Program-made: the position numbers and the translations under genes
The notes under the pieces: model-generated
What the model was told of the DNA's origin: nothing
Seen by the model: only the letters and a program-made list of their open reading frames with translations
Databases searched by the model: none
Source of the DNA: a virus
Strand: one strand, 5' to 3'
Length of the DNA stretch: 39,634 nucleotides
IMG/VR virus record: IMGVR_UViG_3300027985_001217
Span: 1-39,634 of that record
Shown here: piece by piece, positions 4,772 to 26,031 of the stretch
Position numbering within the stretch: the first letter of the stretch is position 1
Layout of the letters: every line of letters begins with the position of its first letter

Positions 4772-5638
4772 TTATCTGTTCCTCCTCTTGCTTCTTCCCG
4801 ATCGTCTAACCTCCACCACGTTATATAAATATGCGACTTCCCGAAGATTCAATTTGAAATCCGGGTGTTCTTCTGTGTTTATCGAGTGACAAGTGATCTC
4901 ACCTGTCTGGACATCGTGATCAACGATCTCCTTCAGCATAATGCCCTTCGTGCCATGGGCGATCACAAAGTCCCAATCTTTGATATGCAGCTTATACTGC
5001 CACAGATCGCGTTTGACCTCCCGGCAAATCACAACATCCCCTTTTAGGTATTCCGGCTCCATACTATCTCCGTCAACTTCAAAAGCCAGGTATTTGCCTT
5101 TATACTCCTGGTCAGCCTCTATCAAAACCGTAGGCAGGTCCTCCAGATACTCGTCCGAATAATAGGCCCCCGCAAATCCAGCCCTTGCGCTCGTTGATAC
5201 CAATTTTACCGGAATATAGGATTCGTATTCCTTTGCTTTTAATTCATCGATCGTTTTCAAAACGGATTCTGTTTTCCCCGGTCCTTGAACATGTTGTATT
5301 GTTCCAATCTGCTTGTCTGAATCGATATTGACTTTTAACTCCCCTGTTTCGGTCAATAGTATATGCCTAATTGTTTCCAAAACCTTATTGGCCGAAAATT
5401 CTCCCGCCTCTTTATTTATGGTGTGTGCTCTTACCTTCTCCGTATCATTTTTTTGATACACAGTAAAATCGATTGTCGGATATAGCGCTGATAATTTATC
5501 AAGCATAGACTCTGGCATCTGGTTTTTACCATTCTCTATTTGCGAAATAAATGACTGAGCAACGTCAAGCGCCTCGGCCAGATCCTTCTGACTGATCTTA
5601 TGCTCCTTCCTAAACCTTTTTAAATCAAACATATACAA
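4772..5638 (-). CDS. CI-like phage repressor (XRE HTH plus S24/LexA-type peptidase)
   Basis: A 288-residue repressor that should hold the lytic promoter off by binding the operators at 5643-5699. The N-terminal HTH is at about 13-52 (ISQKDLAEALDVAQSFISQIENGK). The C-terminal LexA/S24 domain covers about 145-275 with the catalytic serine S192 (VDGDSMEP), a likely lysine K236 (IMLKEI) and a likely cleavage site at A153-G154 (SARAGFAG). This predicts RecA-stimulated self-cleavage and prophage induction on DNA damage. Start codons at M1 and M3 are equally possible. It heads the leftward block and is divergent from the Cro-like gene at 5786. Confidence 0.93.
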   Translation of the reverse strand: MYMFDLKRFRKEHKISQKDLAEALDVAQSFISQIENGKNQMPESMLDKLSALYPTIDFTVYQKNDTEKVRAHTINKEAGEFSANKVLETIRHILLTETGELKVNIDSDKQIGTIQHVQGPGKTESVLKTIDELKAKEYESYIPVKLVSTSARAGFAGAYYSDEYLEDLPTVLIEADQEYKGKYLAFEVDGDSMEPEYLKGDVVICREVKRDLWQYKLHIKDWDFVIAHGTKGIMLKEIVDHDVQTGEITCHSINTEEHPDFKLNLREVAYLYNVVEVRRSGRSKRRNR

Positions 5639-7437: not shown

Positions 7438-7860
7438 ATGATGAATTTCACTATCGATGTGAGGCTAACGGCTTCACCAGAATTGCTCAGCGCAATTCAG
7501 AACCTAACAAACGCTTTCACCGGACAAACGCCAGCGGCGAAACAAACGCCAAAGGCCTTAGAAAAACAGGTGCAGGCGGTTGAGAAAACGACCCAAAAAG
7601 CCGAAGCGGCAAAAGAGGCAGCAAAGGTGGAAGGACCAAAAGAGGAAGTACCGGCATCAGCTGAGACCGCATCGGAATCTACTACTGAGGACACTGTGGC
7701 TTTCACTATTGAACAAGTCCGTGCCGCCGTTAAGGAGAAATCGACCAGCGGTAAAAAAGACCAGGTAAAAGCGTTGCTGGCTGAGTTCGACACGAACAGT
7801 GTAACCAATATGGATGCAAAGCATTATGCAGCATTCATGGCTAAAGTGGAGGCACTGTAA
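7438..7860 (+). CDS. Hypothetical protein with Ala/Lys/Glu-rich linker
   Basis: A 140-residue protein from ATG 7438 (7441 is equally possible). A short N-terminal domain (FTIDVRLTASPELLSAIQNL) is joined by an Ala/Lys/Glu/Pro-rich linker (about 25-85) to a compact C-terminal domain (FTIEQVRAAVKEKS, then KDQVKALLAEF) of a kind common in phage replication operons. Its stop overlaps the ATG of the DUF2800 nuclease by 1 bp, so the two are translationally coupled. A role alongside the nuclease and the ssDNA-binding protein is likely but unproven. Confidence 0.7.
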   Translation: MMNFTIDVRLTASPELLSAIQNLTNAFTGQTPAAKQTPKALEKQVQAVEKTTQKAEAAKEAAKVEGPKEEVPASAETASESTTEDTVAFTIEQVRAAVKEKSTSGKKDQVKALLAEFDTNSVTNMDAKHYAAFMAKVEAL

Positions 7861-9041
7861 TGGGCTCACCAGACAACAACGGGCACGCCCTTCTTGGGCC
7901 ATCAGGTGCAAGTCGCTGGATGGCTTGCACCCCATCGGCCCGACTGGAGGAAAAGTTCCCCGACAAAACCAGCGAAGCGGCTGAGGAAGGGACTACCGCT
8001 CACGAACTCGGTGAGATCCTGCTCCGAACTTTCACTAAAGAGTACACGAAACGCAGATCCAACTCTCTGCTGAAAAAGCTGAAAGAGTCGAAGTACTACA
8101 ACAATGAAATGCAGGATGCGATTGACAACTATGCCGCCTTTATCGTTGAACGCTTTGAAGCCGCTAAAGAACGGACTCCGGATGCGGTATTGCTGATCGA
8201 ACAGAAGCTGGATCTGACAGAGTACATTCCTGAAAGCTTCGGTACTGGTGACTGCGTAATCATTGCAGACGGGACACTGGACATCATTGACCTGAAATAC
8301 GGTAAAGGCGTGATGGTTTCCTGCGAGAACAACAAACAGATGCGTCTGTACGGTTTGGGTGCCCTGCGTGAATTCGATTTCATGTACGACATAGACACTG
8401 TCCGCATGACGATCTACCAACCAAGACTGGACAATATCTCATCTTCTGAGATATCGGTGGCAGAGTTGGAAGAGTGGGCACGCGAGGAACTGACACCAAA
8501 AGCGCAGCTGGCCTGGGAAGGAAAAGGCGAATTCGTACCGGGCGACCATTGCGGGTTCTGCAAAGCCCGGGTGCAATGCCGCGCACTGGCTGAATTCAAT
8601 CTTGAATTGGCGAAACATGAGTTTGCAGATCCGGAATTACTCTCCGATGAAGAGATTGCCGAGATCCTTGATAAAGCAGCTCAGTTCAAAAAATGGATTG
8701 GTTCGATCGAGACCTACGCCCTCACCGAGGCTGTCGATAACGGGAAGCAGTGGCCAGGCTATAAACTGGTTGAAGGCAGAAGCAACAGGGTTTACTCCGA
8801 TCAGGATGCTGTTGCACAGGCATTGACTGACGCCGGTATCGAAGAGACGATCATTTACACACGCAGTCTGCTTGGCATTACCGCAATGGAGAAAGCAATC
8901 ACCAAGAAGACCTTTGAAACCATCCTCGGTGATCTGGTCATCAAACCTCAGGGTAAACCAACCCTTGTTCCGGCATCGGACAAACGACCAGCTTGGAACA
9001 GCTACGAAAGTGCAGTTAACGATTTTTCAAACATTCAATAA
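7860..9041 (+). CDS. DUF2800 RecB/Cas4-like nuclease
   Basis: A 393-residue protein of the DUF2800 family, a PD-(D/E)XK nuclease group. The N-terminus (LLGPSGASRWMACTPSARLE) is diagnostic. The catalytic region is near residues 115-155 (LIEQKLDLTEYIPE, GTGDCVII, then DIIDLKYGKG with the DxK motif). C23, C231, C234 and C240 are arranged like the Fe-S cluster cysteines of Cas4/AddB nucleases. It is followed 9 bp later by a DUF2815 ssDNA-binding protein, a standard phage pair thought to act in replication-linked recombination. Confidence 0.9.
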   Translation: MGSPDNNGHALLGPSGASRWMACTPSARLEEKFPDKTSEAAEEGTTAHELGEILLRTFTKEYTKRRSNSLLKKLKESKYYNNEMQDAIDNYAAFIVERFEAAKERTPDAVLLIEQKLDLTEYIPESFGTGDCVIIADGTLDIIDLKYGKGVMVSCENNKQMRLYGLGALREFDFMYDIDTVRMTIYQPRLDNISSSEISVAELEEWAREELTPKAQLAWEGKGEFVPGDHCGFCKARVQCRALAEFNLELAKHEFADPELLSDEEIAEILDKAAQFKKWIGSIETYALTEAVDNGKQWPGYKLVEGRSNRVYSDQDAVAQALTDAGIEETIIYTRSLLGITAMEKAITKKTFETILGDLVIKPQGKPTLVPASDKRPAWNSYESAVNDFSNIQ

Positions 9042-9050
9042 TTAAGTGTT

Positions 9051-9614
9051 ATGGCAACAAATGATTTTACAGCTACAAAAGTGATCACAGGTGAAGTACG
9101 TTTCAGTTACTTACACGTATTTGAGCCTTCAGCCGTTGGAGAAGGTCAAGACAAGAAATACTCTGTCTCGTTGATCATCTCTAAGTCGGACAAGAAGACC
9201 CTGGCCGCAATCAACAAAGCAATTGAGGCGTCGAAGGAAGCAGGAAAAGCAAAATTCGGCGGCAAAGTGCCGGCAGTTTTGAAAACCCCTCTTCGTGATG
9301 GTGATTTGGAACGCCCAGAGGACGAGGCTTACGCCGATTCGTACTTTCTGAATGCGAATTGTTCAGCCAAACCGGGAGTGGTTGACAAAAACCTTAAGCC
9401 AATCATGGACCAGGAAGAACTCTATTCCGGATGCTACGGTCGCGCTTCAATCTCTTTCTATGCTTTCAATACGAGTGGCAACAAGGGTATCGCGTGTGGT
9501 TTGAATAACCTAATGAAGACCAAAGACGGCGAAAGCCTGGGCGGTCGTGTATCAGCTGAAACAGACTTCGCGGACTTTGCCGGAGCCTCTTCGGAAGAAG
9601 ATGATATGCTTTAA
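9051..9614 (+). CDS. DUF2815 ssDNA-binding protein (phage SSB-like)
   Basis: A 187-residue protein of the DUF2815 family, which adopts an OB fold like the T7 gp2.5-type ssDNA-binding proteins. Family features are visible: VITGEVRFSYLHVFEP near the N-terminus, KKYSVSLIISKSD at about 35-47, YADSYFLNANC around 94-104, and an acidic C-terminal tail (SSEEDDML) of the kind used to recruit replication partners. It probably coats single strands made by the helicases encoded downstream. Confidence 0.9.
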   Translation: MATNDFTATKVITGEVRFSYLHVFEPSAVGEGQDKKYSVSLIISKSDKKTLAAINKAIEASKEAGKAKFGGKVPAVLKTPLRDGDLERPEDEAYADSYFLNANCSAKPGVVDKNLKPIMDQEELYSGCYGRASISFYAFNTSGNKGIACGLNNLMKTKDGESLGGRVSAETDFADFAGASSEEDDML

Positions 9615-9632
9615 CCTTCAAACTGATCAACT

Positions 9633-10103
9633 ATGCAAACTTGGTTTGAAGTAAAAGTAAAATACGTGAAAATCGATCAGGACGGTCGTGAACGTAAAGT
9701 GAGTGAATCCTTCCTGGTTGATGCGGTGTCCTTCACTGATGCTGAAAGCCGGATGACCAGCGAAATGCAGCAAATCATTCGTGGGGAGTTCCAAATCGAC
9801 GCAATCAAGAAGTCAAATATCATCGAGATTTTCCCCGCTGAAGCTGGTCAATTCTGGTTCAAAGCGAAGATCACGCTCGTAACGATCGACGAGAAAGCAG
9901 GAAAAGAACAAAAAGTGAACAACTACTTCCTGGTTGCAGCCGATGATCTGGAAGAAGCCCGGATAAGACTTCAGGAAGGGCTTTCCTATATCCTTGTTCC
10001 GTTCGCGGCTATCTCAATCGCTTTAAGTCCGATTGTGGATGTGTTCCCGTACTTCAAGGAAGACTCTGAAAAGCCTGAGTTTTTGGCCCAGGAAGCAAAC
10101 TAA
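9633..10103 (+). CDS. DUF4494 protein with internal duplication
   Basis: A 156-residue protein typical of Bacteroidota phages. It contains two related units, about 3-40 (WFEVKVKYVKIDQDGRERKV, then FLVDAVSFTDAESRM) and about 78-115 (WFKAKITLVTIDEKAGKEQKV, then FLVAADDLEEARIRL). DUF4494 members have no settled function; the constant position beside replication genes suggests an accessory replication or regulatory role. It ends 8 bp before the phage tRNA. Confidence 0.8.
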   Translation: MQTWFEVKVKYVKIDQDGRERKVSESFLVDAVSFTDAESRMTSEMQQIIRGEFQIDAIKKSNIIEIFPAEAGQFWFKAKITLVTIDEKAGKEQKVNNYFLVAADDLEEARIRLQEGLSYILVPFAAISIALSPIVDVFPYFKEDSEKPEFLAQEAN

Positions 10104-10111
10104 TGAAGAAA

Positions 10112-10185
10112 GCCGGATTAGCTCAGTGGCAGAGCGTGGCGAAGTCCATTCGCCAAGGTCGGGAGTTCGAACCTCCCATTCGGCC
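10112..10185 (+). tRNA. Phage tRNA with enlarged anticodon loop (isotype uncertain)
   Basis: The acceptor stem (10112-10118 with 10178-10184), the D arm (GCTC/GAGC), the variable loop AGGTC and the T arm (GGGAG, TTCGAAC, CTCCC) are all canonical. The anticodon arm 10137-10155 is not: a 5-bp stem leaves a 9-base loop AAGTCCATT, and full pairing gives 7 bp with a 5-base loop GTCCA. The anticodon is therefore ambiguous: TCC (Gly) if centred, CCA (Trp) if placed after the only loop T with a plausible U33 position. The discriminator base is C, and CCA is not encoded. It lies inside the replication operon. Confidence 0.8.
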
Positions 10186-10216
10186 CTAAAAAAATTTACC
10201 CTTAAAACATATCACT

Positions 10217-10408
10217 ATGATACGTACTGTCAAAGAAAAACCGAAAGTTGGGCGACTAATACAGGTCTTCCCAAGTGGAAATTTCACCGTGCTTGCCTCA
10301 AACAAGCCGTTTTCCCAATTGCAGGAAATCAAGAAAGCCTATGTACAACGAGGCTACAAAAAAGAATCGCTCAAAGTAACATATCTGGAAAAAGACAAAA
10401 AACAATGA
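10217..10408 (+). CDS. Small hypothetical protein after the tRNA
   Basis: A 63-residue basic protein. Hydrophobic and charged residues alternate (VGRLIQVFPSGNFTVLASNK), suggesting a small beta sheet, then a helix and a lysine-rich end. Its start lies within the palindrome TATCACTATGATA (10210-10222), and its stop overlaps the next ATG (ATGA at 10405-10408). Function unknown. Confidence 0.65.
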   Translation: MIRTVKEKPKVGRLIQVFPSGNFTVLASNKPFSQLQEIKKAYVQRGYKKESLKVTYLEKDKKQ

Positions 10409-10971
10409 GGGTGCCTTACGAAACGCTATATGACAAGGTCATAGACGACAACTGTAAACTGCCTCTTCTGAAGGGGGTCCTCTTTTTCGGAGAACTGGCC
10501 GTTGCTTCTGACAACTATACCCTTGTGGCAGTTAAGTCAGATTTCCCCGAGACCTTTAAGGGACGGGTTATATCCAAACAGGGAGACTACCTCTATGGGG
10601 TTTACCCTGCCACGTTAGATACTTTCAAATTCGACCCCAAAGAATTAAACCTTTGCGCTTATGCTGCCCAATTGAAAGAAGCCTGTGAAGCCGTGCCAAA
10701 CTGGGACGATTCAGAAGGATTAAGAATGGGTATCGAGGTAGACAAATTAGTATTTAATCCGGCACGGATACTTAAGGTCTTACCAATTTTTGAGGAGGCC
10801 TCTGAAAAGCCGGAGGCTTTTACGCGTTGCGCCAAAGGTGTAATCTTAAGTCCTACTTTAATACTTCGCTCTCCGAACGTTACCGCGCTGATTGCCGCTA
10901 CAAACATACCTCCGGGCACAAAACAAAGCCTCACTATACCTGAAGCCTTAGAAATAGGAGAATTACTATGA
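10405..10971 (+). CDS. Hypothetical protein, possibly sliding-clamp-like
   Basis: A 188-residue protein from ATG 10405; the frame is open further upstream but would run through the tRNA, so that extension is rejected. LLKGVLFFGELAVASDNYTLVAV (around 20-42) and the C-terminal LRSPNVTALIAATN loosely recall beta-clamp subdomains (the LVATDGHRLA-type strand pair). It sits between replication genes just before the DNA polymerase. A processivity-factor role is a guess; no clamp signature is complete, and one subdomain is all that would fit in this length. Confidence 0.6.
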   Translation: MRVPYETLYDKVIDDNCKLPLLKGVLFFGELAVASDNYTLVAVKSDFPETFKGRVISKQGDYLYGVYPATLDTFKFDPKELNLCAYAAQLKEACEAVPNWDDSEGLRMGIEVDKLVFNPARILKVLPIFEEASEKPEAFTRCAKGVILSPTLILRSPNVTALIAATNIPPGTKQSLTIPEALEIGELL

Positions 10972-11462
10972 AAAAAAATAAAAAACCAGTAAAACCGGAG
11001 AAGGTAACTTTTGAAACAGTTGCCCACTTCCTGCCAGAGGGATACTTCGAACAGTACGACAATCCGGAATTGAATGAAGAGCTGCGCGAAGAATTTGAAA
11101 AAAGGATCCGAAAAGCGAACCGCCCGGTTGGTGTAAAGACCGCCGCTGTTCTCGACAGGCGGTCAAAATCTTTCCAGGAGCTGTACGTCAAATTAAAAGG
11201 TCTGACAGAGTTCCAAGCTCAGCAGTTCGAAAACCTTTGTGAGGAAATTGCAAAGGCAAAGGTTATCATCGGCAGCCATAGCCGGCAAAACCAGTACGCA
11301 AAGATAGCGGACACTTACCTCGATTTTATACACATGAAGATCCTGCTCGCTTATGTAGGCACTACAGGGAAAGTGTACGAGTGTGAAGTGCCAGGCATGT
11401 CCTTCGCCCTGGACATGGTTAGAAGCCTGAAGTCTTACTATTCTTATGCCGAATTGCTATGA
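10968..11462 (+). CDS. Hypothetical protein coupled to DNA polymerase
   Basis: A 164-residue helical protein that overlaps both neighbours by 4 bp (ATGA at each end), so it is translated with the clamp-like protein and the polymerase. The N-terminus is lysine-rich. The middle (RRSKSFQELYVKLKGL, then QQFENLCEEIAKAKVIIGSH) is predicted as long helices. Phage operons often have such a small protein before DNA polymerase; I do not recognise its family. Confidence 0.65.
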   Translation: MKKNKKPVKPEKVTFETVAHFLPEGYFEQYDNPELNEELREEFEKRIRKANRPVGVKTAAVLDRRSKSFQELYVKLKGLTEFQAQQFENLCEEIAKAKVIIGSHSRQNQYAKIADTYLDFIHMKILLAYVGTTGKVYECEVPGMSFALDMVRSLKSYYSYAELL

Positions 11463-13405
11463 GAACACTCGGAATAGATATAGAAACTTACAGTCCGGTT
11501 GACTTGCTAAAATCAGGTGTTTACCCATACGTTGAACATCCGGATTTCGAAATCCTCTTGTTTGCTTATGCCTTCGACAATGAGCCGGTTCGAGTTATCG
11601 ACCTTGCCAGTGGCGAGAAATTACCGGAGGAGGTATTTGCGGCGCTGGAAGATCCGGAAGTTTTGAAGACTGCCCACAATGCAGCATTCGAACGCACTTG
11701 TATTGATCAGCATTTCGGTCTCTGGCTGGACGTGGGCCAATGGGAATGTACTATGATAAAATCGGCCATGCTTGGACTGCCGTTGTCACTGGCTGCCGTT
11801 GCAAAGGTTCTCGGAATTAAAGAACAGAAAATGACCGCTGGTAAAGCGCTGATCAAATATTTCTCTGTCCCATGTAAACCGACCAAAGTGAATGGCGGAA
11901 GAACACGGAACCTACCGCACCACGATCCGGACAAATGGGCTCTGTTCATCGAGTATTGCGCCCAGGATGTGGAGACCGAACGCGGGATCAGAAATAAGAT
12001 CGGGTTCTTCCAGGTACCGGAATTCGAAAAGCGATTGTACTGTATCGATCAGGACATCAACGATCGGGGTGTTCAGCTGGACATGCAGCTTGTACACAAC
12101 GCAATCAGGATGGATGCGGAAGTGAAGGAAAAACTGACATCCGAAGCAGTTGACTTGACCGGATTGGATAATCCAAATAGTCCGGTCCAGTTGAAAGACT
12201 GGCTCGGAAATGAAATCGGTCAGCCGGTCGAGAGCCTAACAAAGACAGCCATGCCGGAATTGATGGAAGCTGCAGAAGGAGACGCTCAGCGTATGCTTGA
12301 GATCCGGAAGGAAATGGCCAAAACATCCGTGAAGAAATACGAAGCGATGACAAAAGCAGTTTGCGCTGATGGTCGCGTTCGGGGATTGCTCCAGTTCTAC
12401 GGAGCCAACCGGACAGGACGTTGGGCCGGTCGCTTGGTCCAGGTTCAGAACTTACCGCAAAACAAGCTGGAAGACCTTGACCTTGCGCGTGAAGTTGTCA
12501 GAAGCGGAGATCTTGAACTGACTGAAATACTATTCGGAAACGTGCCGGACACGCTCTCTCAGTTAATCAGAACCGCATTCGTGGCAAAAGAGGGGCACAC
12601 CTTTCTGGTTGCTGACTTCTCAGCCATCGAAGCCCGGGTGATAGCGTGGCTGGCGGACGAGAAGTGGCGGCTGGACGTATTTGCCAAAGGTGGTGACATC
12701 TATTGCGCTTCTGCCTCGCAGATGTTCAAAGTGCCGGTAGTGAAACACGGTGAAAACGGACACCTGAGACAAAAAGGAAAGATCGCGGAATTGGCACTCG
12801 GGTACCAGGGAGGAAAAGGAGCACTCGAAACAATGGGCGCTCTTAGGATGGGAATCGACGAAAGCGAATTACAACCGATCGTTGACGCGTGGAGGGAGGC
12901 CAACCCGGCGATTGTGCAGTTATGGAAAGATGTTGGTAATTCCGCTATGTGGGGGGTGGAGAAAAGCAGAAACCGGGCAGCGAAAGGTCGACTCACTTTC
13001 GAAACAGCCAACAACATCCTTTACATCACGCTCCCATCCGGAAGGAAACTGTGCTACCTGCGCCCCCGCATCGGTGAAAACCGTTTTGGTGGGAAATCGC
13101 TGATCTACGAAGGAATGGACCAAACAACCAAGCAGTGGAGAAAGCAGGAAACCTACGGTGGAAAATTGGTGGAGAATATTGTCCAGGCCATTGCCCGTGA
13201 CTGTCTCGCTGTCGCTATGGATCGCGTCGTTAAGGCCGGATTCAACATTGTCATGCACATCCATGATGAGCTCGTGGTTGAAGCTCCAGCGGAAAATGAC
13301 GACTTGGATCTGCTTTGTCAGATCATGGGGCAGCCGATCGATTGGGCGAAAGGTTTGCCCTTGAACGCTGACGGATACGTGACTAAATACTATAAAAAGG
13401 ATTAA
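11459..13405 (+). CDS. Phage DNA polymerase, family A, with 3'-5' exonuclease
   Basis: A 648-residue replicative polymerase. The exonuclease motif I is at the N-terminus (GIDIETYSP, D7 and E9), and a second exonuclease acidic site is likely near EYCAQDVETE. Polymerase motif A is FLVADFSAIEARV with D386 and E391, motif B is the RQKGKIAELALGYQGG segment, and motif C is HIHDELV with D603. The arrangement matches the phage-type PolA family, which lacks the 5'-3' exonuclease. Lying between the DUF2800/DUF2815 pair and the primase-helicase, it should copy the phage genome. Confidence 0.95.
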   Translation: MRTLGIDIETYSPVDLLKSGVYPYVEHPDFEILLFAYAFDNEPVRVIDLASGEKLPEEVFAALEDPEVLKTAHNAAFERTCIDQHFGLWLDVGQWECTMIKSAMLGLPLSLAAVAKVLGIKEQKMTAGKALIKYFSVPCKPTKVNGGRTRNLPHHDPDKWALFIEYCAQDVETERGIRNKIGFFQVPEFEKRLYCIDQDINDRGVQLDMQLVHNAIRMDAEVKEKLTSEAVDLTGLDNPNSPVQLKDWLGNEIGQPVESLTKTAMPELMEAAEGDAQRMLEIRKEMAKTSVKKYEAMTKAVCADGRVRGLLQFYGANRTGRWAGRLVQVQNLPQNKLEDLDLAREVVRSGDLELTEILFGNVPDTLSQLIRTAFVAKEGHTFLVADFSAIEARVIAWLADEKWRLDVFAKGGDIYCASASQMFKVPVVKHGENGHLRQKGKIAELALGYQGGKGALETMGALRMGIDESELQPIVDAWREANPAIVQLWKDVGNSAMWGVEKSRNRAAKGRLTFETANNILYITLPSGRKLCYLRPRIGENRFGGKSLIYEGMDQTTKQWRKQETYGGKLVENIVQAIARDCLAVAMDRVVKAGFNIVMHIHDELVVEAPAENDDLDLLCQIMGQPIDWAKGLPLNADGYVTKYYKKD

Positions 13406-13727: not shown

Positions 13728-13895
13728 ATGGAAGAAAAGATAATTGAAATCCTGAAAGGGTACCAGCAGTTTAACCCGCAAGAAGGGCAAATAGTTTCCG
13801 CGGATTGGTTCCCGGATATCGCTGAAGATATCCAACAGCTCTTTGACCCAAAAACAAACAACAAAGAAAGCCTCTCAACATGCCTGAAACATTGA
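13728..13895 (+). CDS. Short acidic hypothetical protein
   Basis: A 55-residue ORF from ATG 13728, 10 bp after the previous stop and overlapping the start of the primase-helicase gene by 16 bp. The product begins EEKIIEILKGYQQF and has an acidic middle (SADWFPDIAEDIQQLF). It fills the gap exactly and is probably translated with its neighbours. Function unknown. Confidence 0.55.
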   Translation: MEEKIIEILKGYQQFNPQEGQIVSADWFPDIAEDIQQLFDPKTNNKESLSTCLKH

Positions 13896-16378
13896 AATAT
13901 GACGGCACCTTCGATATAGCTACCGGAAAGAGCCGAAAAGAAACACACTGGCGGAACAGGGAAACAACCTGGTCCGCTTTTCTTACCAAAGTTAAAGAAA
14001 CGCACCGGACAGCTGAGAAATACTCGGAGTACATGTCCTCCAAGAAATCACGCCAAGACGAGATCAAAGACGTGGGCGGCTTCGTGGGAGGGTATGTAAA
14101 CAACGGGAGACGAAAGGCTGAGAATATCCTGCACCGCCAACTGGTCACGCTTGACATTGACTTTGGCAGCATGGAGCTGTGGGATGATTTCTGTATGCTG
14201 TACGGTAATGCCGCTTGCGTGTACTCAACTCACAAGCACAGCTCCGATCATCAACGTTTGCGCCTGATCATCCCGCTTGACAGGCCTGTTGGCTCGGATG
14301 AATACGTGGCAATCTCCCGCCGTATTGCTGGTGAATTGGATATCAACAATTTCGATGATACGACCTACGAGCCAAGCCGGCTGATGTACTGGCCAAGTAC
14401 TGCTAAAGACGGAGAGTACGTGTTCGAGTACCAGGACGGACCTTGGATCTCAGCAGATGAGATCCTGGCGACTTACCGGAATTGGAAGGACGCCAGTGAG
14501 TGGCCAATCAGTGACCGGATGGACAAAGCCATTTTTCGTGAAATTAAAAAGCAGGGAGATCCGCTTGATAAACCGGGTATCATTGGAGCCTTCTGCCGGA
14601 CTTACACGATCCATGAAGCGATTGACTTGTTTCTGGCGGATGAGTACGAGGCGTGTGACATAGAGAACAGGTATACCTACAAAGAAGGATCGACAGCCGC
14701 CGGCTTGGTGGTCTATGATGACAAGTATGCCTATTCCCACCACGGGACAGACCCGACAAGCGGAAAGCTTTGCAACGCTTTTGACCTTGTTCGCCTTCAC
14801 TTGTACGGGCTACAGGACGAGGATGCCAAAGAGGGAACCCCCGGCAACCGGTTGCCGTCCTTCAAAGCGATGCAGGAATTCGCAGCCAAAGATCCGAAGA
14901 CCCGCAAACAGTTGGGGGTTGAACGCCTGGAGGAGATGAAATCTGAGTTCGGGGGCACTTGGGAAGCAACCGAAGACGAAGAAGAGCCGGACACCAGCTG
15001 GTTGGAAAAGATGGATGTTGACGGGAAAGGAAACTACCGGTCCACGATCAATAACGTGAAACTCATTCTCGATAATGACCCAAACCTAAAGGGGCGGTTT
15101 GCGCTGAACAAGTTCGAAAACCGGGAGGTGGCATTGAAGGATTTACCATGGAGAGAAGTTGACCCGAAATTACCTTACCTGACCGATAAAGATGACTCCG
15201 GAGTACGGCATTACATGGAGAGCGTCTATGATATTACCGGAGTGCAGAAGATCACCGATGCCTTTTCATTGACCTTGGAAAATAACTCATTTCACCCGAT
15301 CCGAGATTATCTGAAAGGGCTGGAATGGGATGGACAAGAAAGACTCGATTCGCTTTTCATTGATTACCTGGGGGCAGAGGATTGCAAATACACCCGTGCA
15401 GTCACGAGAAAGGCGATAGTTGCCGCTGTTGCACGGGTATTCGTCCCGGGTATCAAATTCGACAACGTTATTTGTTTCTCCGGTAAACAGGGCGAGGGTA
15501 AAAGTACGCTGATTCGGAAGCTTGGCAGAGGTTGGTATTCGGACAGCTTCGGAACAGTGCAAGGAAAGGAAGCCTATGAACAGATACAGGGGGTTTGGCT
15601 TGTTGAGATTGCAGAACTCGCCGGTTTGAAAAAAGCAGAAGCGGAAGCGATCAAACACTTTATGTCCAAACAGGTTGACCGGTTTCGAGTCGCTTACGGT
15701 AAGCGGGTGGAGAACTTTCCGAGGCAGTGCATTTTCTTCGCCACAACCAATGACTGGGACTTTCTGAACGACCCGACAGGAAACCGGCGCTTTTGGCCGG
15801 TAGCGACAAAGCAACAGGCCCCGACGAAGATAGTTTTTGATGACGGAGACCTGGATGATTACGAGATTGACCAGATTTGGGCGGAAGCAGTCGCCCTGTT
15901 CCGAGGCGGAGAAAGGCTATTTCTCAGCGCGGAAATGGAGAAAGAGGCTTTGTCCAGACAGAAAGAGCACTCGGTTATTGACGAACGAACAGGTGTTGTA
16001 CAGGAGTTCCTGGATACACTCTTACCGGAAGATTGGGAATCCCGGGACATTTATACAAGAAGAATCTTCTGGAGTAGTAGAGGCGAGGAACTTGGAGAGG
16101 TCGGGACCGTGGACCGAACACGTGTTTGCGTGGCAGAAATTTGGTGCGAATTGTTCGGTCAGAAGCAGTCTGACATGACCCGATATAACACGAAAGACAT
16201 TCACAACATTATGCGAAATATGCCCGGTTGGGAGCCGCAAAAAAGCACGTCCAGAATACCGGTTTATGGCAGTCAAAGAGTGTACAAACGTGTCGAAAAT
16301 TTGCAAAAACCAAGCATACACGAAGCCGAAAATCAGCATACACAGCATACAAGTAGAATGATTCTAAATAACGCCTAA
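13880..16378 (+). CDS. Primase-helicase (BT4734-like N-terminus, VirE-type ATPase)
   Basis: An 832-residue replication protein. The N-terminal half has primase-like features (RQLVTLDIDFG with DxD at about residues 92-94, then STHKHSSDHQRLRLIIPLDRP), fitting the BT4734/primase-polymerase group. The C-terminal half is a VirE-like SF3-type ATPase: Walker A GKQGEGKS at 535-542, Walker B-like WLVEIAEL at 573-580, then RQCIFFATTNDWDFL and NRRFWPV. It probably opens the origin, unwinds DNA and makes primers. The iteron array starts inside its 3' end (16313) and continues downstream, which is typical of an initiator and its origin. Confidence 0.9.
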   Translation: MPETLKYDGTFDIATGKSRKETHWRNRETTWSAFLTKVKETHRTAEKYSEYMSSKKSRQDEIKDVGGFVGGYVNNGRRKAENILHRQLVTLDIDFGSMELWDDFCMLYGNAACVYSTHKHSSDHQRLRLIIPLDRPVGSDEYVAISRRIAGELDINNFDDTTYEPSRLMYWPSTAKDGEYVFEYQDGPWISADEILATYRNWKDASEWPISDRMDKAIFREIKKQGDPLDKPGIIGAFCRTYTIHEAIDLFLADEYEACDIENRYTYKEGSTAAGLVVYDDKYAYSHHGTDPTSGKLCNAFDLVRLHLYGLQDEDAKEGTPGNRLPSFKAMQEFAAKDPKTRKQLGVERLEEMKSEFGGTWEATEDEEEPDTSWLEKMDVDGKGNYRSTINNVKLILDNDPNLKGRFALNKFENREVALKDLPWREVDPKLPYLTDKDDSGVRHYMESVYDITGVQKITDAFSLTLENNSFHPIRDYLKGLEWDGQERLDSLFIDYLGAEDCKYTRAVTRKAIVAAVARVFVPGIKFDNVICFSGKQGEGKSTLIRKLGRGWYSDSFGTVQGKEAYEQIQGVWLVEIAELAGLKKAEAEAIKHFMSKQVDRFRVAYGKRVENFPRQCIFFATTNDWDFLNDPTGNRRFWPVATKQQAPTKIVFDDGDLDDYEIDQIWAEAVALFRGGERLFLSAEMEKEALSRQKEHSVIDERTGVVQEFLDTLLPEDWESRDIYTRRIFWSSRGEELGEVGTVDRTRVCVAEIWCELFGQKQSDMTRYNTKDIHNIMRNMPGWEPQKSTSRIPVYGSQRVYKRVENLQKPSIHEAENQHTQHTSRMILNNA

Positions 16379-16597
16379 GCATACACAGCATACAGGCAGC
16401 ATACACAAAAATTAAAGCCTGTATGCTTCTGAAATGGTAGAAAAATAAGGGCTTTCAAGCTATTAGCATACACAGCATACACTAAAAAGTAAAAAACTAT
16501 GAAAGATATAAATAGAGAGAAAAATAAAGGAAAAATATTCTCTAATCCCTCAAATGCGTACCCCTCCTCGCGCGTACGCGCGTGTTTCGTGTATGCT
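16313..16597. repeat. Iteron array, probable phage replication origin
   Basis: Ten copies of AGCATACA (usually AGCATACAC): on + at 16313, 16335, 16344, 16378, 16387, 16398, 16465 and 16474; on - at 16419-16427 and 16589-16597. Three pairs are exact 9-bp tandems (16335/16344, 16378/16387, 16465/16474). AGCATACAGGC (16387-16397) and GCCTGTATGCT (16417-16427) form a perfect inverted repeat. An AT-rich stretch (16483-16555) and a GC palindrome (16569-16582) follow. Iterons, AT-rich DNA and an adjacent primase-helicase gene are the standard signs of an origin. Confidence 0.75.
16569..16582. repeat. Perfect 14-bp palindrome CGCGCGTACGCGCG
   Basis: An uninterrupted palindrome in the iteron region, much richer in GC than its surroundings, 6 bp before the last inverted iteron and 40 bp before the VRR-NUC start codon. 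It could be a protein-binding or cruciform site at the origin. Confidence 0.6.
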
Positions 16598-16621: not shown

Positions 16622-16903
16622 ATGACTGAAAAATTACTTGAAAAGAAACTTCGTGAGGAGGTAAAAAAGCTGGGAGGTTTGGCCTTGAAATTTTTCTCAG
16701 CAAGCTTCACCGGGATGCCGGACCGGATCATCCTGATGCCGGGAGCCAGAGTTGCCTTCGCCGAAATAAAAACAACCGGAAAAACCCAAAGCCCAAGACA
16801 GCGAATCGTCGCAAGAATGTTAAGAAAATTAGGGTTCAGAGTTGATGTGATCGACACATTGGAGTTATTAACTGATTTCTTGAATTACCTAAAAACTTTT
16901 TAA
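16622..16903 (+). CDS. VRR-NUC nuclease
   Basis: A 93-residue single-domain VRR-NUC protein of the PD-(D/E)XK superfamily. The catalytic core is visible: GMPDRIILMPG with D34, AFAEIKTTGK with E48 and K50, and Q60 in SPRQ. Single-domain members are common in phages, next to an SNF2/SF2 helicase as here (2 bp apart), and cut branched DNA such as Holliday junctions or replication forks. The pair probably processes recombination or replication intermediates. Confidence 0.92.
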   Translation: MTEKLLEKKLREEVKKLGGLALKFFSASFTGMPDRIILMPGARVAFAEIKTTGKTQSPRQRIVARMLRKLGFRVDVIDTLELLTDFLNYLKTF

Positions 16904-21064: not shown

Positions 21065-22507
21065 ATGAAAGTCGCAGAAATCACCGCAAAAACCCTTCCC
21101 ACCGAGATCATAGCCGACCTCAAGACCGGCCGTGACTCCGATGCACCCGATATCGCGAAAGCAGAGAAAGGGCTCGATCCGTTAAAGCACGACGTTTTTG
21201 ACTACACGAAACGACCGGACAAGATTGTCAAGGTTGACGTAGAGGACGGCGGAACAAAGGTGATCACCACTGATGATCCGGAGACATCGACCCGCCGGGA
21301 GCCAGTTGCAAGGATTGCCATATCGATCCAAAAGCTAATCGTCAAACGCGCGGTATCCTTCCTGTTCGGGAATGAAGTAGCGCTGGATGCAGAGGCAGAA
21401 AACGATAATCAAAAGCTCGTTTTGAAGGCTATGAAGCGAATCCTTTACGATGTGAAATCCAAATCGCTTAATCGCCGTTTAGCCCGTACCGTGTTTAGCT
21501 CGACCGAAGCCGCAGAACTTTGGTATCCTGTTGAAAAACTTCACAAGGACTACGGTTTTAGCAGCAAATTCAAACTACGTGCAACAATCTTCTCTCCGCT
21601 AAAAGGAGATGAGCTTTACCCGTATTTCGATGATTCCGGCGACATGGTTGCTTTCTCCAGGGCCTTTAAGCAGACTAAAAACGGTGTGACAAAACGATTC
21701 TTCGAGACTTACACAGATGAGGAGCATTGGCTGTGGGAATATGCTTCTGAGGGGGTGATCGTGGTGGAAGGGTACCCGAAACAAATTGCAATTGGCAAGA
21801 TCCCGGTAATCTACGCCCGTCAGCCTCAATTGGAGTGGGAAGATGTCCAGGTGCTGATTGATCGTTTGGAGAAATTGCTATCCAATTTCGCCGACACGAA
21901 CGACTATCACGCCTCTCCGAAGATCTTTGTAAAAGGCCATATCGAAGGGTTCAGCAAAAAAGGTGAAGCCGGGGCGATCCTGGAGGGAGATGAGAACTCA
22001 GAAGCGCAATACCTGGCCTGGCAGAATGCCCCTGAGTCCGTGAAGCTGGAGATCGAAACTTTGTTAAACCTGATCTACACACTCACTCAAACGCCGGATA
22101 TCTCCTTTGAGAACGTGAAAGGGATTGGGGCCGTATCCGGTGTGGCTTTGAAGCTGTTGTTCATGGATGCACATTTGAAGGCCGAGGATAAGAAAGAAGT
22201 TTTCGATGAGTTCATGCAACGCCGGATCAACGTGATTAAAGCCTTTATCGGAAAATTCGATACGGGGCTTGCAAACGACTGCGACACCCTGATGATAGAG
22301 CCGGAGATTACACCTTACATGATCGATGATGATAGAGCCAACATTGACCTGATCGTTGCAGCGAATGGCGGCAAACCGATCATCTCTCAGAAAAAGTCAG
22401 TCGGGCTGTCGGGCCTGGTGAATGACGCAGAGGCGGAGTTCGAACAGATCCAGGAAGAGGCCAAACAGGAACAATCATTCATCCTGGGTGAACCCACCGT
22501 TGCATAA
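21065..22507 (+). CDS. Portal protein, SPP1 gp6-like
   Basis: A 480-residue portal, the dodecameric ring through which DNA enters and leaves the capsid. The family is shown by the N-terminal RREPVARIAISIQKLIVKRAVSFLFGNEV (residues about 79-105, seen as two adjacent blocks), the central IGKIPVIYARQPQLEWEDVQ, and the helical stem around SGVALKLLFMDAHLKAEDK. The start follows AAAACATATCAC and a TATCACACTAATA motif at 21044-21056. Its stop overlaps the MuF gene start by 1 bp. Confidence 0.92.
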   Translation: MKVAEITAKTLPTEIIADLKTGRDSDAPDIAKAEKGLDPLKHDVFDYTKRPDKIVKVDVEDGGTKVITTDDPETSTRREPVARIAISIQKLIVKRAVSFLFGNEVALDAEAENDNQKLVLKAMKRILYDVKSKSLNRRLARTVFSSTEAAELWYPVEKLHKDYGFSSKFKLRATIFSPLKGDELYPYFDDSGDMVAFSRAFKQTKNGVTKRFFETYTDEEHWLWEYASEGVIVVEGYPKQIAIGKIPVIYARQPQLEWEDVQVLIDRLEKLLSNFADTNDYHASPKIFVKGHIEGFSKKGEAGAILEGDENSEAQYLAWQNAPESVKLEIETLLNLIYTLTQTPDISFENVKGIGAVSGVALKLLFMDAHLKAEDKKEVFDEFMQRRINVIKAFIGKFDTGLANDCDTLMIEPEITPYMIDDDRANIDLIVAANGGKPIISQKKSVGLSGLVNDAEAEFEQIQEEAKQEQSFILGEPTVA

Positions 22508-25047
22508 TGGCAAAAGGCTTTTCACAAAAGGATTGGGAAAACGGGCATCTCCACAATGTGGAGAGTTGCGTGGGAGCAGTTGACCGGCTATATAGCAAGG
22601 CAATTGCAGATATTTCACGTCTTGCCAAACGGGTAAAAATTAACCCGGAAAAGCCTTTTAGTTTTGACGATTACCCAACAGCCAAGGCAGCAGCGGCTAA
22701 GATCGTGAAGGGGTTCAACACTGGCCTAAACCAAATCATCACCAACGGATCTCGGGAGCAGTGGCTTTACGCAAACAGGAAATCGGATGCTTTCCTTCAG
22801 TCCATTATGGACACAACAAAGATCCGCAAACCGGTGCTTGACAAGATGCAGGACCGCAACCTGGACGCCTTGAAAACCTTTCAATCCCGAAAAGTGAACG
22901 GCCTAAACCTTTCGCAGCGGATCTGGCAGTATTCCGGGCAGTTTAAAGAAGCTATGGAAATGGGGATTGACGTCGGTATTGGTGCCGGGAAATCAGCCCA
23001 ACAATTGTCCAAGGATTTGAGAGGGTTTCTCCTGGAGCCAGATAACCTGTTCAGACGTGTACGGGACAAACGGGGCAACCTGGTACTGTCGAAAGCAGCG
23101 AAATCCTTCCATCCGGGGCAGGGTGTTTACCGGTCAAGCTATAAAAATGCCATGCGGCTTACACGATCTGAGATCAACATGTCATACCGGACAGCCGATG
23201 ACCTCCGGTGGAACCAGATGGGCTTTGTCGCAGGATTCGAGATCAAGCTATCCAACAACCACACCTTGAACGGGAAACCATTTAAGGACATTTGCGACGA
23301 ACTGGCCGGAAAATACCCAAAGCAATTCCGATTCGTTGGCTGGCATCCCCAATGCCGGTGTTACAAAACCCCCATCCTGCAAGATCCGGATGAGTTCAAT
23401 GATGATGAATTGAACGAATTGAAGGCCGCGATCAACGGAACCGAGTACAAAAGGTATGTGCCAAAAAATACTGTTTCAGACGTTCCGGGCAATTTTAAAG
23501 ACTGGATTGCAAACAACCAGGTAAAGATTGATGGCTATAAATCTACCCCATACTTTATCAAGGATAATTTTAACAACGGGAAGATAGCAGACGGGCTCAG
23601 TATTGCAACAAAACGTATGAAGCCAATAAAATCCCAAGCCCAAAAAGAAGTCATCCAGAGGGCTTGGAATTCACGTCAAACAAGCAGAAAGTATAACGAC
23701 GAAGTCAGCGAAATAGCTGACCAGTACAAAGAGGTTGATTCCATCATAAATTATGCAGGCAAAATACAGAGTGAGATAAAGAAAGGATCTTCAGTTGAGA
23801 AAATTGACACGATGGTCCAAAAGCTGAGAAACAAAGTCTCTGTCAAAGACGCCTGGGAAGTTCGCAGAGAAGAAAATCAGCTCGGTGCGATACTGGCAGA
23901 TGTCAAAGGATTAAAGGCGAAATACGATAAATCGACAATTCAGAATCTGTATAATGCGGTTGACGCCAAGTTGAAGGGTTGGGAAAATCTGTCCCTGACG
24001 GATCAAAAGAAAAAGCTGCTTTTTGAAGTTAACTGGGTTGAGCAAAACAAGAAGTACGATACCTGGAAAGCCGCTCAGGACGCATACAAGAAGCGTCTTT
24101 CAAAGGTTGAATACTTGATTGAGAAGGAGTCAGTCAAATCCAGTATATCAAAGGCTCTTGATTTTGCGAAAAGTACGAAATCAACGATCCTAAAGCAGCA
24201 AGTAAAGGAATTACAGCTACTTCTTGATAATAACGCCTCTATTTCTACCCTGAAAGAAAAAGCGGTTCAGCTCAATAGCAAGGTAGATAAATTAATCAGC
24301 GACAGAGCGGCAAAAGAGGCTAAGAAGAAGCTACCCGATCTGACCGGTCTGGATAAGTTTTCGAAAGCAAGAAAAGATAAGGCCCTTTGGGCTAAGACTG
24401 CAAATATTGCAGATGACAAATTCCGGCCTAATACGCAGAATGTATGGAATGCTTCTTCATTAGAAGAGAAACAAGCGGCGTTTGAATATACGAGAGGTAG
24501 CGGGGGCTTTAACAGGCCCTTACGCGGGTATCAAGGCTCTTGGAGTGAGTTTGATTACAAAGGAGTAGGCAAAGCTGACCTTAACTATGAAGGAAGGGGC
24601 AAACAAATAGAGGGACTTACAAAAATGATTGACAAAAGCTCCTATGATTTTGACGTTTGGTTGCAACGTGGGGTTGAAAGTACTGGTACTGCGAAGTTTT
24701 TAGGTGTGGATTATGCAAAGCTGCTTAATATGTCAGCCAGTGAACTTCAATCCCTTGTCGGTAAAATTGTGAATGAGCCAGCTTTCACCTCCTGTGGATC
24801 CGCAAAAGGTAAAGGTTTCCCGGGTCATATCTTCAACATCTATTGCCCTGCTGGTACAAAAATGGTTTATGCTGAACCGTTCTCTCATTATGGGGGGAGC
24901 TACGGAACTATTTGGAACGGGGTTAATAAAAATACCCTAAGAGGTGAGCTTGAGACGATTATTCAAAGAAATACCACCTTCCGAATAACAAAGGTCGAAC
25001 GGACAGGCGGTAGATTATACATTGATATGGATGTCGTGGCTCAATAA
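22507..25047 (+). CDS. MuF-type head protein with C-terminal ADP-ribosyltransferase domain
   Basis: An 846-residue minor head protein. The N-terminal third (to about residue 295) is a phage Mu F-like head morphogenesis domain ending in the cysteine pair GWHPQCRCYKTPI. A helical spacer with coiled coils (about 320-640) follows. The C-terminal domain, about 665-846, has an arginine-serine-glutamate ADP-ribosyltransferase layout: R721 in VWLQRGV, the STS-like strand FTSCGSAKGKGF at 760-771 (S762), and E814-x-E816 in LRGELETI. ExE is typical of arginine-modifying enzymes. MuF proteins sit near the portal and may be ejected with DNA, so the domain could modify host proteins. Length is far above that of plain MuF proteins (about 300-500). 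Confidence 0.88.
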   Translation: MAKGFSQKDWENGHLHNVESCVGAVDRLYSKAIADISRLAKRVKINPEKPFSFDDYPTAKAAAAKIVKGFNTGLNQIITNGSREQWLYANRKSDAFLQSIMDTTKIRKPVLDKMQDRNLDALKTFQSRKVNGLNLSQRIWQYSGQFKEAMEMGIDVGIGAGKSAQQLSKDLRGFLLEPDNLFRRVRDKRGNLVLSKAAKSFHPGQGVYRSSYKNAMRLTRSEINMSYRTADDLRWNQMGFVAGFEIKLSNNHTLNGKPFKDICDELAGKYPKQFRFVGWHPQCRCYKTPILQDPDEFNDDELNELKAAINGTEYKRYVPKNTVSDVPGNFKDWIANNQVKIDGYKSTPYFIKDNFNNGKIADGLSIATKRMKPIKSQAQKEVIQRAWNSRQTSRKYNDEVSEIADQYKEVDSIINYAGKIQSEIKKGSSVEKIDTMVQKLRNKVSVKDAWEVRREENQLGAILADVKGLKAKYDKSTIQNLYNAVDAKLKGWENLSLTDQKKKLLFEVNWVEQNKKYDTWKAAQDAYKKRLSKVEYLIEKESVKSSISKALDFAKSTKSTILKQQVKELQLLLDNNASISTLKEKAVQLNSKVDKLISDRAAKEAKKKLPDLTGLDKFSKARKDKALWAKTANIADDKFRPNTQNVWNASSLEEKQAAFEYTRGSGGFNRPLRGYQGSWSEFDYKGVGKADLNYEGRGKQIEGLTKMIDKSSYDFDVWLQRGVESTGTAKFLGVDYAKLLNMSASELQSLVGKIVNEPAFTSCGSAKGKGFPGHIFNIYCPAGTKMVYAEPFSHYGGSYGTIWNGVNKNTLRGELETIIQRNTTFRITKVERTGGRLYIDMDVVAQ

Positions 25048-25271
25048 AGATTTAGAAAATAATCACTTTCTGATTCATACTTATCGGGAAGGCGATTCAT
25101 GAGAAGGTCATACATGTACACTTCGAACTGTTTCTCTTTCTTCTGCAGGTCTTTCAGGTTCGCGTGATTACTTTCAAACAATTTCTCGTATTCCCAGAAC
25201 TGTGAGGCTGCCCAGTTTTCTTCCGGGTCAAACGGGTTTTTAGTTTCTCCTTTATAGTACTTGTATTTCAT
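25041..25271 (-). CDS. Small acidic protein in the ADP-ribosylglycohydrolase operon
   Basis: A 76-residue protein rich in aromatic and charged residues (MKYKYYKGETKNPFDPEENW, ending SESDYFLNLY). Its start overlaps the 3' end of the glycohydrolase gene by 20 bp, and its stop overlaps the stop of the convergent MuF-ART gene by 7 bp. I do not recognise the family. Position alone makes it a candidate second immunity or partner protein for the ART domain. Confidence 0.65.
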   Translation of the reverse strand: MKYKYYKGETKNPFDPEENWAASQFWEYEKLFESNHANLKDLQKKEKQFEVYMYDLLMNRLPDKYESESDYFLNLY

Positions 25272-26031
25272 TTTTATGCTTTTTGAATTTGGATATTATT
25301 TTTTTCACGTCGTTCGGCATAAATGCCAAAGCCTTTTCTTCCATCCAGGCAGGAATTCCGTAATAGGCTTCAGCTAAAGATCCGGTAATCGCAGCAATCG
25401 TATCAGAATCGCCTCCAATTGACACGGCTAACCTAATAGCGCTCTCGAAATCCGAACTTTCAAGAAAGCAGACTATTGCCTGAGGAACGGTAACTTGGCA
25501 AGTCTCATCAAACCAATTCACCGGTCTGATTTCATCGCAGGTGAAGTCTATATTATATCGAAATTTGAATTTTATGCTTTTGCGTAATTCATCCAACGTT
25601 GCCCCTTGACTCAACATATAAATGCTAAGGGCTATGCATTGCGCGCCACGTACTCCTTCAGGATGATTGTGGGTTATATTCGCCGACTCCTTTGCCAATT
25701 TCAAGGCATCGTCATGACTGCCCGCTAACCAACCAACAGGCGAAACCCGCATTGCAGAACCATTACCAAAACTATTGTAGGGCCCCATACTTTTGTCATG
25801 AACCCATCGACCAAACATCCCACCATAAGAGCTGGGATACTTCCGGCACCAGTTTCTCATGGTCTCTGGCAGATTACTGTTAGGGTGTAATAGCCAATCG
25901 GCAACTGCGACAGAACAGATGGTATCATCCGTAAACATGCAATCCGGGTGGAAGAATTCGAAGTCAGTCCCCCGATAGTTATTAAATTCAAACCGGGATC
26001 CGACTACATCTCCTATAATTGCTCCTATCAT
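25252..26031 (-). CDS. ADP-ribosylglycohydrolase (DraG/ARH family)
   Basis: A 259-residue enzyme that removes ADP-ribose from proteins (typically from arginine) or related substrates. Family motifs are clear: IGAIIGDVVGSRFE at the N-terminus, the metal-binding FTDDT (T34, D35, D36), GNGSAMRVSPVGW at 90-101, THNHPEGVRGA at 120-130, and SIGGDSDTIAAI with GGDSDT at 206-211, supplying the second metal site. It is full length. It sits on the opposite strand to the MuF-ART gene, separated from it only by the 76-residue gene. Protection of the lysogen from ADP-ribosylation is the obvious hypothesis; reversal of a host defence is another. Confidence 0.93.
   Translation of the reverse strand: MIGAIIGDVVGSRFEFNNYRGTDFEFFHPDCMFTDDTICSVAVADWLLHPNSNLPETMRNWCRKYPSSYGGMFGRWVHDKSMGPYNSFGNGSAMRVSPVGWLAGSHDDALKLAKESANITHNHPEGVRGAQCIALSIYMLSQGATLDELRKSIKFKFRYNIDFTCDEIRPVNWFDETCQVTVPQAIVCFLESSDFESAIRLAVSIGGDSDTIAAITGSLAEAYYGIPAWMEEKALAFMPNDVKKIISKFKKHKNEIQVL

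Follow-up and report, generated by a model that had tools for sequence, protein, structure and literature searches.

What is the function of the short repeats that run across the 3' end of the primase-helicase gene in this phage genome, and which protein reads them? The window, by which we mean the whole 39,634-nucleotide (39.6 kb) stretch of DNA analysed, encodes an integrase, a repressor, a terminase large subunit, a portal protein, and head morphogenesis and major head proteins, and because of these genes it probably represents a temperate phage. Its host probably lies in the Bacteroidota, since the nearest VapE relatives found among genomes (L077 at 68% and L078 at 62%) belong to that group. 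Upstream of the primase-helicase gene, at 7860–13405, is a replication module with a DUF2800 protein with a PD-(D/E)XK nuclease, an Enc34-type ssDNA-binding protein, a DUF4494 protein and DNA polymerase A. The elements of the locus, in window coordinates, are:

13880–16378, plus strand: vapE-type primase-helicase gene, 832 aa, the proposed initiator (PF05272, E=6.5e-81; phrog_256 DNA helicase, E=0)
16229–16291, plus strand: codons of the predicted C-terminal wing hairpin, aa 784–804 (AF2 model and association with the iteron word)
16247–16249, 16253–16255, 16271–16273 and 16277–16279, plus strand: wing residues T790, R792, S798 and R800, respectively
16292–16375, plus strand: extra 28-aa VapE tail reading through iterons 1–3 (from comparison with the tails of relatives)
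16313–16320, plus strand: iteron 1 (exact AGCATACA match)
16335–16351, plus strand: iterons 2 and 3, 9-bp tandem pair (exact AGCATACA matches)
16378–16394, plus strand: iterons 4 and 5, 9-bp tandem pair (family peaks at -95 and -86 from the inner site)
16398–16405, plus strand: iteron 6 (family peak at about -75)
16420–16427, minus strand: iteron 7 (family peak at -53 to -55)
16465–16481, plus strand: iterons 8 and 9, inner tandem pair facing the core (exact matches and layout)
16482–16560, no strand: A/T-rich stretch, the proposed unwinding element (76% AT versus 55% for the whole window)
16569–16585, no strand: alternating purine-pyrimidine tract CGCGCGTACGCGCGTGT (17-base run)
16590–16597, minus strand: iteron 10, which closes the core (family range +101 to +120)
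16622–16903, plus strand: VRR-NUC endonuclease gene following the array (PF08774, E=2.3e-5; phrog_93)

The initial annotation had described ten sites, eight on the plus strand and two on the minus strand, and exact matching confirms this count at a density far above chance: 12 exact AGCATACA matches occur in the window where 0.61 are expected (maximum of three across 100 shuffles), and ten of the 12 fall within 16313–16597. A window-wide scan of 480-base segments gave a score of 9.8 at the array and no more than 4.0 away from it. The three exact 9-bp tandem pairs that had been noted are present, with starts at 16335/16344, 16378/16387 and 16465/16474, as are the A/T-rich stretch and the 11-bp inverted repeat (16387–16397/16417–16427), which is formed by iterons 5 and 7. 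The array does cover the 3' end of the gene and the gap after it, with the VRR-NUC gene next; iterons 1–3 lie inside the last vapE codons, and iteron 4 (16378–16385) starts on the last base of the stop codon. The further suggestion that selection at this coding end acts on the DNA rather than on the protein is supported by comparison with relatives, whose homology to the window VapE stops at about aa 804: past that column they have a median of four residues, versus 28 in the window VapE, and these 28 span three iterons. Cumulative GC skew, an uninformative measure here, showed no inflection at the array.

We considered how widely this arrangement is shared. Among 398 sampled genomes from a single phylum, 29 carry a VapE-type primase-helicase, and 666 phage records contain relatives. 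The 285 distinct vapE loci compared here come from three sources, IMG/VR, GTDB genomes and GenBank phages; each was scored for recurring 8-mers with no word specified beforehand. A significant array was present within 480 bases around and after the vapE end in 221 loci (78%), compared with 6/285 shuffled sequences, 4/285 segments inside vapE, 4/273 upstream and 10/278 at 0.9–1.4 kb downstream (1–4%). The most common spacing between same-strand neighbours is 9 bp, and opposite-strand neighbours peak at about 20, 44–47 and 101 bp. Measured from the inner site, the family layout has plus-strand peaks at -139, -128, -95, -86, -75, -9 and 0 and minus-strand peaks at -53 to -55 and +101 to +120; the window sites, relative to 16474, lie at -161, -139, -130, -96, -87, -76, -9 and 0 (plus) and at -54 and +116 (minus), and so coincide with these peaks in a layout that is constant to within a few bases. 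Thus, the array proceeds from 9-bp tandem pairs through the reverse site at -54 and the inner pair to an A/T-rich core of about 100 bp with an alternating tract, and then to the reverse sites. Over 136 loci, the core, bounded by the inner pair on one side and the reverse sites on the other, averages 98 bases and 71% AT, and its alternating purine-pyrimidine run has a mean length of 14.9 versus 6.8 in shuffles; 61% of loci have a run of 12 or more, versus 2% of shuffles. Runs of this type readily undergo strand opening or adopt Z-DNA, and a role for the tract in melting is plausible, if only inferred. A loosely conserved box near CTAGTNATANCAAGGGTTT, independent of the iteron word, lies at about 16440–16460 in the window and also upstream of the inner pair in relatives (e.g. 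L037, L050 and L059); in the relatives, the hexamers CAAGGG and GGGTTT are enriched about eightfold in the region upstream of the inner pair.

While the layout stays, the word itself turns over quickly. There are 121 words among 170 non-redundant loci, and pairs of loci at 80–90% identity share the same word in only 28% of cases; GGATACA, GTCAACA, GGAAACA, GGCAACA and CGGACAGC all occupy the same arrangement in the gap of relatives. A frame, T-G-N-N-N-N-C-A, is conserved among the words (6.1–6.4 bits versus 3.5–4.2 in shuffled words). Absence of the repeat from close relatives had been named as grounds for rejecting the original interpretation, and here the outcome is divided: the exact word is absent beside every other vapE found, and the array is present with a different word. 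An exact search of IMG/VR for AGCATACA returned ten contigs, mostly with one pair each; these are probably chance matches, because none encodes VapE in the sequence examined. A strict search of 391 genomes for a double-pair origin with TGTCAACA found none. Because the word changes rapidly within a stable layout, each phage would carry a nearly private origin, if origin activity is correctly inferred. The same observations bear on the idea that the array is merely a functionless, expanding simple-repeat element. Copies in a fast-evolving gap that run on into a coding end are what such an element would leave, but it would not keep strand order and spacing fixed as the word changes, nor would it be concentrated at the vapE end (78%) over control regions (1–4%), and we give this idea almost no credence.

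The array is not tied to a single position. In 67 of the 285 loci no array follows vapE, and in many of these the next gene directly adjoins; an automatic scan of the 67 found a repeat cluster elsewhere in only 17, some of which are probably unrelated. Arrays with the same arrangement have been relocated to about 2.1–2.7 kb downstream in six loci (L028–L031, L040 and L071) and to about 0.7–1.4 kb downstream in five (L138, L142, L186, L311 and L323). Croceibacter phage P2559Y (L632) has no gap after vapE, and two TGTAAACA arrays with a core are found in two of its intergenic regions. These two copies, at 23621–23850 and from 42857 to about 200 across the record start, are similar and both far from vapE, so that the phage possibly has two origins. 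This genome also has about eleven head-to-tail 15-bp repeats at 5080–5240, at the end of an annotated capsid gene. The nearest viral relative of the window (L004) has no array after vapE and none in the DNA scanned, and none was found in the 10–45 kb of BF503P2.

Which protein might read a word that changes so readily? The structure PDB 7pds (PriRep1) matches aa 387–729 of the window VapE (E=5.4e-78), and the AF2 fold of the VapE C-terminal domain matches this DNA-bound SaPI PriRep1 with a TM score of 0.79. In the AF2 model (pLDDT 91.7), hairpin strands lie at about 784–793 and 797–804, and residues 790, 792, 798 and 800 are predicted with high confidence to lie on both strands of this one C-terminal hairpin, the wing of a winged helix. 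We aligned the words to the frame T G N N N N C A, with frames and directions assigned computationally; the layout rather than the protein decided the direction. In 136 non-redundant loci, with about 630 columns of the whole-VapE alignment in competition, the column most strongly associated with word position 1 was 792, with position 3 was 798, with positions 4 and 6 was 790, and with position 7 was 800. The same columns ranked first when words were permuted only within clades (z of 7.5 to 10.5; about 540–640 columns).

The first direction rule mis-oriented some loci. After a Staphylococcus aureus phage array proved to have been read backwards, all loci were re-oriented with a layout template, which changed 12, and we regard the rerun as a sensitivity analysis; the same columns again came first (z of 13.4, 11.2, 9.1, 7.1 and 10.4). 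In the corrected direction the S. aureus phage word, TGTTGCAT, fits its K790 and V798, a post hoc agreement. In the re-oriented set, G3 accompanies K or R798 in 21/39 loci versus 2/133 otherwise (p=2.6e-14), R792 accompanies T1 in 91 of the 95 determined cases and K792 accompanies G1 in 17 of 23, and K790 is found with T4 in 37 and with C6 in 47 of 51. The wings of L048 and L050 are identical over residues 790–804 except for Q798R, and their words are TGTAAACA and TGTCAACA. A sister-pair test was confounded by the lower identity of pairs with different words. Iterons that overlap codons 790–800 were considered as a source of spurious association and dismissed, as the overlap occurs in only 9/316 loci.

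Not every analysis recovered these residues. A first scan of 52 sequences gave noise, with only a hint at column 798, and no wing residue led a single-column Mantel test (T790 ranked third and S798 eighth); by 15-aa windows, the same test ranked 786–800 first. For the validation, rules were written before new loci were fetched. In 34 independent loci, none with a VapE that reached 90% identity to one used in training, three of four rule groups held: G3 with K/R798 (4/4 versus 2/30, p=3e-4), G1 with K792 (5/6 versus 0/17, p=2e-4), and T4 with K790 (13/16 versus 3/18, p=4e-4), with p=0.03 for the two C6/A6 rules. The pre-registered R4 rule (K800 with T7) failed in these loci, and a whole-VapE column ranking of the 34 alone, which has no power, did not put the wing residues on top. 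A distant SaPI-type PriRep locus (L634), a single case read by eye, has R at 790, 792 and 798 in its wing SRHRFGEGIGRQYG and a TGGGACA array in 9-bp pairs just 3' of the gene, as the rules suggest.

The association bears on a second alternative, in which the binder is a different protein of the phage (the repressor, the HTH proteins or the DUF4406 protein) or host DnaA. The window does encode repressor-like and HTH proteins, and host DnaA commonly helps at plasmid origins. A conserved host protein, however, leaves 121 words in 170 loci unexplained, and the word covaries with VapE wing residues even within clades; although other phage proteins were not compared, we consider a different binder improbable. 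The association lends support to the initiator being specific for its own iterons but, with no binding assay, does not establish it. The window's own word is atypical, having A1 and C3 with R792 and S798, which the rules predict poorly; the proposal that the window VapE reads the window word, for which there are no binding data, rests on family evidence. One double-stranded word is used in opposite directions, as TGGTAACA with K798 (L045 and L064) and as TGTTACCA with V or L798 (L046 and L078), which suggests that the direction of reading matters.

In iteron plasmids such as RK2, P1 and pSC101, too, an initiator binds short repeats arranged in tandem next to an A/T-rich region that unwinds. 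The iterons there measure about 17–22 bp and work together with DnaA boxes and the DnaB helicase of the host, in contrast to the 8-bp words here, which are set 9 bp apart on both strands and accompany a phage-encoded helicase. Closer parallels come from mobile elements. In SaPIs and PICIs, rep plus downstream repeats (ori) drive autonomous replication (PMC6092414). In their pri-rep origins, which follow immediately on the 3' side of the gene for the helicase-initiator, iteron sets flank an AT-rich region and are recognised by the C-terminal domain of the initiator (PMC6092414; Ubeda 2007 as cited in PMC7581432). The array here is likewise immediately 3' of the initiator gene, in the window as in the 221 loci, and this initiator is a helicase with a C-terminal winged helix, as indicated by PF05272 and by the sequence and fold matches to 7pds; an array of 9-bp pairs of this kind is also present at the SaPI-type L634. 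Flanking sets are present in the window as pairs before and a reverse site after the 76% AT stretch, the distal set being one site only. The window is not a satellite, having its own terminase, portal and head genes, and the loci here lie in Bacillota and Bacteroidota phages that are complete and temperate. Further differences are a module of PolA, VRR-NUC and SNF2 helicase, the 832-aa length of VapE, the alternating tract and the exact layout. In SCCmec, the Cch2 helicase, with a putative origin, also uses its C-terminal domain to bind short direct repeats that follow its own gene; Cch2 differs in having three 5-nt repeats and no primase domain, its repeat region is highly similar among elements, and no word-residue association is described (PMC7581432).

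These parallels carry weight because the association alone cannot separate an origin from a control site. The array might be a VapE-bound regulatory site for autorepression, copy control or incompatibility and not a replication start: the word-residue association shows who reads the sites and not what follows, plasmid iterons also act in copy control, and the array precedes the VRR-NUC gene. On the other hand, the array can sit kilobases from vapE, and opposed sites that enclose an A/T-rich core and alternating tract, in a position 3' of the gene for the initiator, are features of SaPI/PICI origins (PMC6092414), so that we view a purely regulatory site as unlikely. The structure of an iteron-controlled origin, as originally proposed, is supported by the conserved position and layout, the A/T-rich core, relocation as a unit, the word-wing association and the SaPI PriRep parallel, with replication itself untested. 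We conclude, with a probability of roughly 0.8 and without binding, replication or marker-frequency data, that the array is the phage replication origin and VapE its initiator. The best reading is a SaPI/PICI-like origin, read by the VapE wing and widespread in temperate phages, for which binding and replication have not been shown.

We suggest that the wing hairpin of the VapE C-terminal winged helix would read the 8-bp iteron by direct binding, and that the 9-bp-spaced tandem pairs on either side of the approximately 100-bp core would seed one VapE assembly on each side, the two facing one another with the A/T-rich stretch and the alternating tract between them. The core might then melt, the SF3-type helicase load on itself, and the primase part prime; melting and helicase loading, like origin activity, are inferred.

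The organisation is already known from SaPI/PICI origins; what is placed here is an origin-like array of this kind beside vapE in most loci, in more than 200 phage and prophage loci, and thus in ordinary phages. No description of origins of VapE-type primase-helicases was found in the open-access literature searched, and, as far as we searched, the same holds for the constancy of the layout under a rapidly changing word, for the alternating tract, for relocation and for the wing-word association, some of which may be known for SaPIs. The data suggest which residues read which bases, so that origin specificity may be partly readable from sequence, and specificity, cross-replication and satellite hijack become testable; a naturally occurring system of DNA recognition through a wing hairpin would also be gained. 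A bolder idea, for which we hold the odds to be somewhat short of even, is that VapE-type phages carry a diversifying origin-recognition system in which the 8-bp word is determined for the most part by four residues of the wing. Words would then outpace the rest of the replication module because a shared word is costly, through cross-initiation by a resident prophage, hijack by a satellite or titration by other origins, and compatibility between phage and satellite origins would be predictable from sequence.

Elsewhere in the window, a head-morphogenesis protein (22507–25047, plus strand) matches the ADP-ribosyltransferase family phrog_16625, and its gene adjoins an ADP-ribosylglycohydrolase gene on the opposite strand (25252–26031, minus strand; phrog_6572). 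The two may form a modifier/eraser pair.
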